Assembly: GCA_947453015.1 (NCBI GenBank)
Contig: CANGFL010000109.1
Span: forward strand, 1-5,587
From: Oxalobacteraceae bacterium
GTDB lineage: Bacteria > Pseudomonadota > Gammaproteobacteria > Burkholderiales > Burkholderiaceae_D
Reading direction: 5' to 3'
DNA length: 5,587 nucleotides
Shown: one piece after another, positions 141 through 3,035 of the stretch
Layout: every line of letters starts with the position of its first letter
Numbering within the stretch: position 1 is the stretch's first letter
Translations under genes and position numbers: made by a program
The notes under the pieces: generated by a model
What the model saw: the letters and a program-made list of their open reading frames with translations, nothing else
Told to the model about the DNA's origin: nothing
Databases searched by the model: none

Positions 141-162
141 TTTAAACACCTTTTAAACACCT
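141..162. repeat. Perfect 11-bp tandem duplication over the flgA stop codon
   Basis: TTTAAACACCT occurs twice head to tail (141-151 and 152-162). The flgA stop codon (TTA on the plus strand, 153-155) lies in the second copy. It looks like a small slippage duplication at the gene end. No function is evident. Confidence 0.6.
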
Positions 163-1247
163 TTGGCCGCACCTTTGCCGGTGATAACACCGGAGAAGGT
201 ATGGCCAGATTCTGGATTGCGCAACTTAATTTGTTCGTTCAGGCGCCCATCCTGCAGTGCCTCAACCTTTACTGTAATCATAAATTCTGTGGGTCGGCCA
301 ATGACAAAGGTCACTAGATCGCCTTTTTTTACCATCAGCGCAGGACGCAAATCGCTGGTTCGTATAGCTTCGCCGGCACGGATAGGGCGCATCAGCTCCG
401 ATCCCTCTAAACCAGAAAGATCGAACAAGTGGGTACGATTTATCTTTTCGGCATCTAATCGTTCCAGCTTGAGTAATTCGGGTTTTAACACTTGGCCCAC
501 GTTCAGATTACTTGAAGCGACCACCACTTGTCGGTTTTCCGCGAGGTCCGTGGTTTGAATAATCTGGCCAGCCGCTACATTTTTACCTAAGCGGGTGCCG
601 GGCGTGATTTCAGTTGGAATCCAGACTGGCGAACTACCGCCCGCACCGGGCGCAAGATCTATCCGCTCGATCGCCGATTCCGTCATCAAATCGCCAGCTT
701 TTAAAGCAAACTTTGCGCGGACGGCTTTTTGTCCCTTTTCAAGATCGTGCGCCATTACCGGCTGGCCCTTAGCCAGTGGTCGTTTCAATTGGCGCCCGAC
801 TAAGGCTGATTTTTCGTTAAAACTTCCTGCGGCGGGCACAGCCACCGTTTTGATATCTAAATCCGTATCTTTCAGTGCCTGACCGGGAGCGATATCCCGA
901 TTCGCCACCACCATCTCTTGCAGCTGCTGCTGAGTCAGGCCAACTTTTACAAAAATTTGCCATGCCGGTTTGTTACAGCGGGCACGAACACTCTCTTTAT
1001 TAACAAATGGATAATCAAAGCTAAGGCTGCCGCCGCAGGGTTGAACCTGCACGCGGGGATCGAGTGGTGCCATTTTGACTTGATCGGCTGTGACACCTGA
1101 CTGACCCGCAACCCAATTGCCCAACGCAGTCTCCAATGCCTCTTGCGGAGTCGCAGCCAAAACCGCCTGCGAGCTTGCGAATAGCAGGATCGCCAGCAAT
1201 CTCAACACAACTCTATATAGGAGTGGCTGGAGTCGTTGAATAATCAT
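153..1247 (-). CDS. flgA: Flagellar basal body P-ring formation protein FlgA, long form with three SAF-like repeats
   Basis: FlgA is a periplasmic chaperone that assists FlgI assembly into the P ring. The 364-residue product begins with a Sec signal peptide: arginines at 5, 12 and 16, a hydrophobic stretch from about 13 to 24, and probable cleavage after AVLA (residue 31). Residues 32-110 form the N-terminal domain, with a likely disulfide pair at Cys71 and Cys91. Three SAF-like units follow at about 112-170, 175-236 and 240-300; each opens with a beta strand and a glycine-containing turn and ends in an [A/P]-G-[Q/E]-x-[I/V]...DL pattern. The C-terminal beta domain (301-364; VKKGDLVTFVIGR, then a GxLNExIKLRNPESG segment) is typical of FlgA. 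E. coli FlgA is about 219 residues with one SAF unit, so the excess matches two more. ATG at 1247 is the first possible in-frame ATG, since TAG precedes it at 1287-1289, but no clear Shine-Dalgarno is visible. A leftward sigma-54-like promoter lies at 1345-1360. Confidence 0.93.
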   Translation of the reverse strand: MIIQRLQPLLYRVVLRLLAILLFASSQAVLAATPQEALETALGNWVAGQSGVTADQVKMAPLDPRVQVQPCGGSLSFDYPFVNKESVRARCNKPAWQIFVKVGLTQQQLQEMVVANRDIAPGQALKDTDLDIKTVAVPAAGSFNEKSALVGRQLKRPLAKGQPVMAHDLEKGQKAVRAKFALKAGDLMTESAIERIDLAPGAGGSSPVWIPTEITPGTRLGKNVAAGQIIQTTDLAENRQVVVASSNLNVGQVLKPELLKLERLDAEKINRTHLFDLSGLEGSELMRPIRAGEAIRTSDLRPALMVKKGDLVTFVIGRPTEFMITVKVEALQDGRLNEQIKLRNPESGHTFSGVITGKGAAKGV

Positions 1248-1272: not shown

Positions 1273-1288
1273 TGGTACGGGCTTTGCT
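1273..1288 (+). promoter_or_regulatory. Candidate sigma-54 promoter of the LysM-transglycosylase gene
   Basis: TGGTACG-GGCT-TTGCT matches the RpoN consensus TGGCACG-N4-TTGCW with one mismatch, and the GG and GC dinucleotides have the required 12-bp offset. The predicted start is near 1299, giving a leader of about 83 bases to the ATG at 1382. That is close to the leader length predicted for flgB (about 73). This would put the gene under the same sigma factor as the flgB operon. Confidence 0.65.
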
Positions 1289-1381: not shown

Positions 1382-2341
1382 ATGGAAATACGATCGAGAG
1401 TTAATGACCAGATAGGCGATATTGCCAAAGAGAGAGCGCGTCACCGCGAGGCCGCGCCATCGACGTCTTTCCGTCAGGTGGTGGAAGAGGCTAACCGTGA
1501 AGCGACTTCAACCGTAAAGGTTCAGCGTGGCGATACCTTAGTTAGTCTGACACGCAATTTCTTGGGTGAGTCGGCGTCCCAACTAAACAAAGGGCAGATT
1601 TACGATCTGGCTAAAACGCTGGCCAAAGAAAATGGCATTGCTAATCCAGACCGCATCATGCCGGGGCAGCAGATCAATATGACCCCTATGTCTACCTTAG
1701 CAGCACTGAAGCTCAGGCAGGGCACGGTTGAAGGCGTTCAGCTGAACACGGAATCGCCGCAGGTGAGTGCGCCGGTGTTGGATAAAACCTTGGCGCGAGC
1801 AGTCACTAAAGGATATATGCAGGCCGAAGACCAGCGCGCGGTACGCGATAAGATTTTGCAGCTCGCTACAACCCATGGTTTTTCGCCGGATGATTTTGCC
1901 CGCACCACCTTAATGGAGTCGGATGGTATGAATCCGCGTGCATCGAATGGTAGCTGCCACGGCATCATTCAATTTTGCTCAGGCGGTAATCGGGGTGCTG
2001 CGAGTGCCGGCTATGCCGACAATCCTAAAGAGATACTTTCATTGTCTGTGATGGATCAGCTGGATTTAGTTGATAAATATTTTACGGATACCAAGCTCAA
2101 AGATTTTGGTCCGGCTTCTTTGGATAATCTCTATTTGACCGTGTTAACACCGAACGCACGTAATGAGCCGCGAGCTAACGTGCCATTAAATATTGTCGGT
2201 CGCCAGGCCGCCGCTTTATATGAGGGGCGTGATCAGGCGGGGGTGATTACGCGTAATTCGCTGATTGCAGGGCTCAAGCAAAATGCACGTGAACGTCTGG
2301 GTGAATTCTCAGTCGCTAAAGTAGAGCGCAAAATGATGTGA
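1382..2341 (+). CDS. LysM and lytic-transglycosylase/lysozyme-like domain protein, putative flagellum-associated murein hydrolase
   Basis: I know no gene name for this 319-residue protein. Residues 1-43 are charged and polar, with no signal peptide or membrane segment. Residues 44-103 are a LysM peptidoglycan-binding domain (VQRGDTLVSLTRNFLG at the start, IMPGQQINM at the end). A helical linker follows. Residues 155-310 look like a lysozyme-fold transglycosylase domain: Glu179 in LMESDGMNPRAS is the likely catalytic acid, HGIIQF (193-198) resembles the SLT GxxQ motif, and YLTVLTPNA (251-259) resembles the later conserved SLT segment. Cys192 and Cys199 flank the GIIQF motif. A TGA in frame at 1373-1375 rules out an upstream extension with a signal peptide, so Sec export is unlikely. 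Only a weak, close GAGAG (1374-1378) precedes the ATG. Its own sigma-54-like promoter and place between flgA and flgB suggest it opens murein for the rod, as the FlgJ muramidase domain or SltF do elsewhere. Enzymatic activity and flagellar role are inferred; LysM is sure, the catalytic fold fairly sure. Confidence 0.85.
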   Translation: MEIRSRVNDQIGDIAKERARHREAAPSTSFRQVVEEANREATSTVKVQRGDTLVSLTRNFLGESASQLNKGQIYDLAKTLAKENGIANPDRIMPGQQINMTPMSTLAALKLRQGTVEGVQLNTESPQVSAPVLDKTLARAVTKGYMQAEDQRAVRDKILQLATTHGFSPDDFARTTLMESDGMNPRASNGSCHGIIQFCSGGNRGAASAGYADNPKEILSLSVMDQLDLVDKYFTDTKLKDFGPASLDNLYLTVLTPNARNEPRANVPLNIVGRQAAALYEGRDQAGVITRNSLIAGLKQNARERLGEFSVAKVERKMM

Positions 2342-2485: not shown

Positions 2486-2509
2486 GGTGGCAAATTCTTG
2501 CCGCTTTTT
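2486..2509 (+). promoter_or_regulatory. Palindrome 2 with T-run: candidate activator site and/or terminator of the upstream gene
   Basis: GTGGCAA (2487-2493) pairs with TTGCCGC (2498-2504), with one G-U pair and a four-base loop, and five T follow (2505-2509). As RNA this is a moderate intrinsic terminator for the gene ending at 2341. As DNA, positions 2486-2505 match 16 of 20 positions of palindrome 1 (2435-2454), and the centre lies about 77 bp before the predicted flgB start. It may serve both purposes. There is no stronger terminator between the two genes. Confidence 0.5.
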
Positions 2510-2546
2510 CCCTCTGAAATGGTCGTATTTCCGCCAAAAAACGAAC

Positions 2547-2562
2547 TGGCACGGCGCTTGCA
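2547..2562 (+). promoter_or_regulatory. Sigma-54 promoter of the flgBCDE operon
   Basis: TGGCACG-GCGC-TTGCA is a perfect match to the RpoN -24/-12 consensus with correct spacing. Transcription should begin near 2573, giving a leader of about 73 bases before flgB. RpoN control of the flgB operon is standard in bacteria with polar-flagellum hierarchies such as Vibrio and Pseudomonas, where a two-component activator (FlrC or FleR) drives it. Confidence 0.9.
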
Positions 2563-2645: not shown

Positions 2646-3035
2646 ATGGATTTACTCAATTCGGCTTTAGGCATACACGACAAAGCGCTGCGCGTGCGAA
2701 ATCAGCGCATGGAGCTGCTCGCTCGAAATATCGCCAATGAAGACACGCCGCATTTCAAGTCGCGTGAATTGGATTTTAAAACCGTGATGGCGAAATTCGA
2801 ACCTGCGGAACCCATGGCGGCGACCAACCAAACGCATTTTGATTATGGCGATGACAAGTTAGATGACGATGGCATGCGTTATCGCGTTCCATTCAACGCA
2901 TCAGCCGATGGAAACACAGTAGAGATCACCGTGGAACAGGCCAAGTACGGTAAAGCAGCCGCTGATTATCAAGCGACGCTGACCTTTCTTGAAAATCGCG
3001 TCAGCAGTATTCGCAAAGCATTGAGAGGGGATTAA
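2646..3035 (+). CDS. flgB: Flagellar basal body proximal rod protein FlgB
   Basis: FlgB is a proximal rod subunit next to the MS ring, exported by the flagellar type III apparatus. The 129-residue product (E. coli 138) starts MDLLNSALGIHDKALRVR, followed by the rod/hook signature ARNIANEDTPHFKSRELDF (residues 26 onward). The C-terminal helix (about 93-129; VEQAKYGKAAADYQATLTFLENRVSSIRKAL) is the D0 coiled-coil segment. The central part is short and acidic. The start is set by GGGAG at 2635-2639 and by family length. It is first in the operon under the sigma-54 promoter at 2547-2562, and flgC follows after 6 bp. Confidence 0.97.
   Translation: MDLLNSALGIHDKALRVRNQRMELLARNIANEDTPHFKSRELDFKTVMAKFEPAEPMAATNQTHFDYGDDKLDDDGMRYRVPFNASADGNTVEITVEQAKYGKAAADYQATLTFLENRVSSIRKALRGD

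Follow-up and report, generated by a model that had tools for sequence, protein, structure and literature searches.

The locus and the predicted LysM enzyme

The window analyzed here is an entire contig of 5,587 bases (CANGFL010000109.1) from the genome of an Oxalobacteraceae bacterium, assembled to 1.84 Mb in 331 contigs and estimated to be 75% complete. It carries, in order, flgA on the reverse strand, a forward open reading frame (ORF) of 319 amino acids, flgB, flgC, flgD and the 5' part of flgE, which is interrupted by the contig end. The 319-residue product (1382..2341; forward strand here and below unless stated), the subject of this work, joins a LysM domain to a lytic transglycosylase (LT)-like domain and is predicted to be a flagellar murein enzyme (LysM-LT). 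Its reading frame is open only from position 1376, fixing the start near 1382, and because an in-frame stop directly precedes the ORF there is no space for a hidden upstream signal peptide. The flanking genes are flgA (153..1247, reverse strand), a divergent neighbor encoding a P-ring chaperone of 364 amino acids (Pfam ChapFlgA, E = 6.5e-36, and SAF, E = 1.6e-24; TIGR03170, E = 2.1e-43), and flgB downstream (2646..3035), the first gene of the flgBCDE series. This layout, including the upstream stop, agrees with a first-pass annotation made from the sequence.

Residues 46-99 (1517..1678) constitute the LysM domain (PF01476, E = 5.7e-5, 23.4 bits versus a curated cut-off of 20.9), which is matched in all 63 members of an alignment that includes the window protein (alignment A2, E<=0.1). 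Residues 131-306 (1772..2299) are assigned to a lysozyme-superfamily, LT-like catalytic domain, as the predicted fold is lysozyme-like and matches the phage LTs 9udh and phiKZ gp144, at a low sequence identity to 9udh of 22% over 142 aligned residues. Glu179 (codon 1916..1918), the predicted catalytic acid, aligns with a Glu of 9udh and lies at the end of predicted helix 169-180, where lysozyme-superfamily LTs have their conserved catalytic Glu. Among 80 loci encoding the enzyme, Glu179, Ser180, Gly194, Gln197, Phe198 and Tyr251 are invariant and His193 is kept in 77. Thus the LysM domain, Glu179 and the HGIIQF motif (193-198), all noted in the first-pass annotation, are found where they were placed.

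The protein has no cysteines besides two that enclose HGIIQF, giving the active-site motif CHGIIQFC (192-199; 1955..1978), and the pair is retained in 80/80 loci. Because C192 and C199 fall on predicted strands 192-193 and 198-199, a disulfide between them is possible in the model; the FlgB-FlgG and FlgJ proteins of the locus of the closest relative (L002) contain no cysteines. A C..GLIQFC block with the same pair also occurs in a Microcoleus phage relative, which makes the cysteine pair a trait of this enzyme branch. In that phage (My-WqHQDG, locus L165), the LT-like block and cysteine pair lie at 2001-2456 in a gene annotated as an LD-endopeptidase, an annotation that may be incomplete.

The 80 loci were kept from 189 relatives found in a scan of genome contigs; a parallel protein search gave 1925 matches, 120 of them listed. 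By name, the loci come from genomes of Burkholderiales or of other betaproteobacteria, including Oxalobacteraceae, Comamonadaceae, Limnohabitans, Polaromonas and Rhodoferax, and many are named as lake or pond isolates. Linkage to flagellar genes is pervasive, with flgA upstream on the opposite strand in 78/80 loci, flgB downstream on the same strand in 74/80 and both in 72; in the remaining loci, including the six without a visible flgB, the neighbor is unseen because its position falls past the contig end. The enzyme itself is uncommon, given its few carriers: 3/200 sampled genomes of the order (E<1e-100), only the window's own among 369 genomes of the class, and 2/299 genomes of the phylum (E<=1e-10).

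A sigma-54-like promoter, TGGTACGGGCTTTGCT (1273..1288), lies upstream of the LysM-LT gene, as had been proposed, and a second, TGGCACGGCGCTTGCA (2547..2562), upstream of flgB; these are the only strict pattern matches in the window. Across loci, the enzyme gene is preceded by the strict pattern in 25/78 (0.18 expected by shuffling) and by a relaxed pattern with the first base free in 64/78 (0.72 expected), leaving 14/78 loci with neither form. Between the enzyme gene and flgB a strict match occurs in 69/74 loci, against 0.04 expected.

Amino terminus, FlgJ partner and cluster lineage

The absence of a signal peptide, claimed in the first-pass annotation, was assessed as the highest 11-residue hydropathy within the first 45 residues, with a threshold of 1.9, a crude measure from which 2/80 loci were omitted as too short. 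By hydropathy alone, no Sec-like core is present in the window protein (peak 0.26) or in its 78 relatives (at most 1.73; 0/78 reach 1.9), in line with the claim. Sec-type controls from the same loci reached 1.9 in 32/32 FlgH, 25/25 LPP20-family proteins and 30/31 FlgI, although in just 9/13 FlgA, whereas type III proteins, among them FlgB (0/72), FlgD (0/51) and FlgJ (0/28), never did.

The N-terminus contains FRQVV at residues 30-34 (1469..1483), a candidate FxxxPhi gate-recognition motif located where it had been described. F30 is invariant in the 79 of 80 loci having the N-terminus, and is the sole fully conserved column of the N-terminal 44 residues (59/59 ungapped rows of 63, 4.32 bits); the residue four positions later is hydrophobic in 79/79 (Leu 51, Met 15, Phe 7, Val 4, Ile 1, Trp 1). 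According to passages of PMC8983047, the motif of Salmonella FlgD comprises residues 36-40 and its hydrophobic signal residues 2-5, and in no rod or hook subunit does FxxxPhi lie fewer than 30 residues in; the rule for early substrates drawn from that paper combines this spacing with hydrophobic residues ~24 or more upstream of the motif. LysM-LT conforms to this rule, with hydrophobic I3, F30 and 26 residues between them, and the FlgB, FlgC, FlgD and FlgE proteins of the window carry FxxxPhi at 44, 51, 48 and 39. In FlgB, F45 is described as critical (PMC9307174, in part). Export of LysM-LT through the flagellar type III apparatus is likely, as judged from sequence features: the invariant Phe in 79/79 loci and the lack of a Sec-like core in 78.

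FlgJ is visible in 28/80 loci, as 23 complete ORFs of 154-223 amino acids and five cut by the locus end, and none of the 23 complete proteins has an enzyme domain. In L002, where the enzyme is 97% identical to that of the window, FlgJ has 154 amino acids and only the Rod-binding domain; Rod-binding is the only domain in 8/8 FlgJs of enzyme-bearing clusters run against Pfam. The FlgJ of a further enzyme-bearing genome, G820, shows Rod-binding only. A genome-level search covering 50 of the 80 enzyme-bearing genomes detected the rod-binding family PF10135 in 41, each encoding it in at least one open frame of 160-238 amino acids, so that a partner FlgJ free of the enzyme domain, as accompanies SltF-type enzymes, is present in 41/41 genomes with FlgJ. 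The glucosaminidase (GH73) family PF01832 was found in 5/50, once in a separate 167-residue frame (G591) and four times in a second, dual-domain FlgJ (G576, G592, G598, G613) that points to a second flagellar system; a complete GH73 FlgJ is thus present in 4/41 genomes, each of which also has a single-domain one.

Across the sample of the order, tallied by hand, FlgJ occurs in 132/200 genomes, of which 114 have GH73 (110 in the same frame, four elsewhere) and 18 do not. In most relatives of the carriers, cutting the hole for the rod would fall to the enzyme part of FlgJ. Two of the 18 (G104 and G147) carry the LysM enzyme, beside FlgJs of 169 and 183 amino acids from the first start codon. Inspection of the stretches around FlgJ in the 18 genomes and in G141 revealed the enzyme gene only in G104 and G147, some stretches missing the flgA-flgB gap. 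Four genomes of the sample (G003, G008, G057, G129) have a short FlgJ frame, with GH73 on a short ORF of its own at another site, which may represent a different kind of FlgJ split.

In a tree of FlgG, FlgI and FlgC, a single branch with 100/100 support separates 33 enzyme-bearing clusters from 17 comparison clusters, the latter chosen for absence of GH73 with the exception of G141. G141 belongs to the window's own genus and has a dual-domain FlgJ with an ordinary cluster. Genome G104 has two flg clusters (L112 and L113), only one of which includes the LysM enzyme, and they lie on either side of the branch. Among the matches listed, FlgI of the enzyme type is closer to gammaproteobacterial FlgI (up to 56% identity, E = 1.4e-119) than to FlgI of three other genomes of the order (E = 3.9e-85 to 2.8e-87). 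Thirteen such gammaproteobacterial loci were taken, and 11/11 FlgJs run against Pfam combine Rod-binding with Glucosaminidase (L154 and L159 were left out). A second tree, built by a quick method from chosen rows, keeps the enzyme clade whole (stem 0.82), beside two gammaproteobacterial rows and apart from ordinary Burkholderiales. The enzyme is a marker of a flagellar cluster that is distinct within Burkholderiales and gammaproteobacterial-like. Judged by this distribution, the stem of its clade would have seen FlgJ shed its enzyme domain and the LysM enzyme arrive, in either order.

Proposed function and alternatives

The predicted fold, the linkage to flgA and flgB and the absence of the glucosaminidase domain from the FlgJs of relatives support the earlier reading of the gene as encoding a dedicated flagellar murein hydrolase. 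We propose that LysM-LT is probably a flagellum-dedicated lytic transglycosylase, likely exported by the type III apparatus, that would open murein for the rod, substituting for the enzyme domain that FlgJ is missing. In this scheme, sigma-54 would switch the gene on together with the rod genes, and the N-terminal ~40 residues would bring the protein to FlhB as an early substrate, residue 3 being hydrophobic and F30 serving as the docking motif. Beyond the membrane, LysM would keep the protein on the glycan beside a rod tip capped by single-domain FlgJ, and Glu179 would cut glycan strands to let the distal rod pass.

Stand-alone enzymes of this kind are known. SltF of Rhodobacter (Cereibacter) sphaeroides is, in the parts of PMC7277832 that describe it, an LT encoded in a flagellar operon and partnered by a FlgJ without an enzyme domain, and BB0259 (LTase-Bb) of Borrelia burgdorferi is an LT needed together with single-domain FlgJ (PMC8517470, in part). 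LysM-LT resembles both apart from the Sec signal, of which it shows no core: SltF carries a signal sequence and uses Sec (PMC7277832), and BB0259 has an essential Sec signal and a long N-terminal part, the word LysM being absent from the main text of PMC8517470. LysM-LT further differs from SltF, by description rather than by sequence, in its LysM domain, phage-type catalytic domain and flgA-flgB position. Dual-domain FlgJ, a rod cap joined to a GH73 glucosaminidase, also opens murein for the rod and shares what is likely, on present predictions, the type III route of LysM-LT; FlgJ-Bla fusions are exported by the flagellar type III system (PMC9307174, in part). LysM-LT is nevertheless a separate protein of another family, in which Pfam matched neither PF10135 nor PF01832, and hence is not a dual-domain FlgJ. 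With the phage LTs it shares the predicted fold, the aligned Glu of 9udh and, with the Microcoleus phage protein, the cysteine-flanked block, but it is encoded by a host gene within a flagellar locus and carries both LysM and the N-terminal motif. In Bacillus subtilis, CwlQ is another LT-type enzyme linked to flagellar motility; by the title of its report, it is reportedly needed for swarming and not for flagellar assembly.

How the wall-cutter is confined in species with an enzyme-less FlgJ is an open problem, as SltF and BB0259 are released to the periplasm by Sec. Passage through the rod would keep a dangerous enzyme where the flagellum is being assembled, a restriction that flagellar LTs exported by Sec cannot obtain from export alone. 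A stand-alone cutter traveling through the rod would, if real, solve confinement by the way it is delivered, and because it is separate from FlgJ, rod-capping and cutting could be switched off independently. We give even chances to a broader proposal, that this is a third way through the wall, in which a phage-type LT fused to LysM became an early flagellar type III substrate, displaced the enzyme domain of FlgJ and is delivered through the rod without belonging to its cap. Folding may be completed only outside, where the C192-C199 pair could close. These ideas can be tested because the cluster is held by Limnohabitans strains, among others.

Several observations weigh against the proposed role. 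For export, the start codons of relatives were picked by rule, which weakens the Sec-core result; FxxxPhi is short and loose, and ~22/79 N-termini would be expected to have one by chance; passages of PMC9307174 report no sequence-conserved common signal for FlgB and FlgC and a greater effect of FlgC F49 on assembly than on secretion; and the N-terminal 41 residues are modeled at a predicted local distance difference test score (pLDDT) <50. The invariant Phe might alternatively be a binding site for a partner protein. A dedicated murein enzyme might then take a different export route that needs no signal, or travel with a partner, F30 docking a flagellar protein such as FlgJ. The position of F30 in a short, low-confidence predicted helix (29-39) is compatible with a protein-binding motif, and Sec is the route to the periplasm for known stand-alone flagellar LTs (PMC7277832 and PMC8517470, each in part). 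However, all 78 members tested lack a Sec-like core, the motif and its spacing from the N-terminus fit the early-substrate rule, as does hydrophobic residue 3, and the neighboring rod and hook proteins carry the same motif, so we regard such a route as unlikely.

For FlgJ, the expected loss of its muramidase domain is seen in the relatives, so that the counter-case of a full GH73 FlgJ serving the rod by itself does not hold there; in the window's own genome, an assembly 75% complete in which the window contig ends inside flgE, no FlgJ was found. Furthermore, the 16 genomes of the order with FlgJ and neither GH73 nor the LysM enzyme (for example G001, G012, G029 and G128) indicate that a FlgJ without GH73 is not by itself a reason for the enzyme, and the counts pairing the enzyme with single-domain FlgJ are not independent, as they largely reflect one lineage inherited as a block. 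The murein trimming might also serve a different envelope step, still within this flagellum, such as seating of the P-ring or outer disc or anchoring of the stator. The gene is divergent from that of the P-ring chaperone, the L002 cluster encodes an LPP20-family lipoprotein and a LysM domain hints at lasting attachment to the wall; the occurrence of the enzyme where FlgJ lacks a murein-cutting domain nonetheless points to rod passage, and we consider another step improbable.

For catalysis, a Pfam search of LysM-LT returned LysM as the sole family at E<=1, with no SLT, and SLT-type families (PF01464 and kin) were absent among the eight families matched by any of the 63 alignment rows at E<=0.1. 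With the low identity to 9udh, this would suit a degenerate LT relative serving as a wall-binding scaffold or ruler, a highly improbable role given the kept active-site pattern of six residues invariant in 80/80 loci.

Other features of the cluster

A terminator-like hairpin with a T tail lies 3' of the LysM-LT gene (2486..2515), a weak prediction as two were found versus 1.5 expected in shuffles. The window FlgA has two SAF or FlgA C-terminal-type stretches, suggesting a repeated domain. In L002, positions 3730-7593, before flgN, encode the LPP20-family lipoprotein, a pair of proteins with no Pfam match and a protein resembling the FliK C-terminus at a score below the cut-off; many enzyme-bearing loci have relatives of these genes in matching order. 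At 12865-16140 of L002, the hook protein FlgE of this closest relative has 1091 amino acids.
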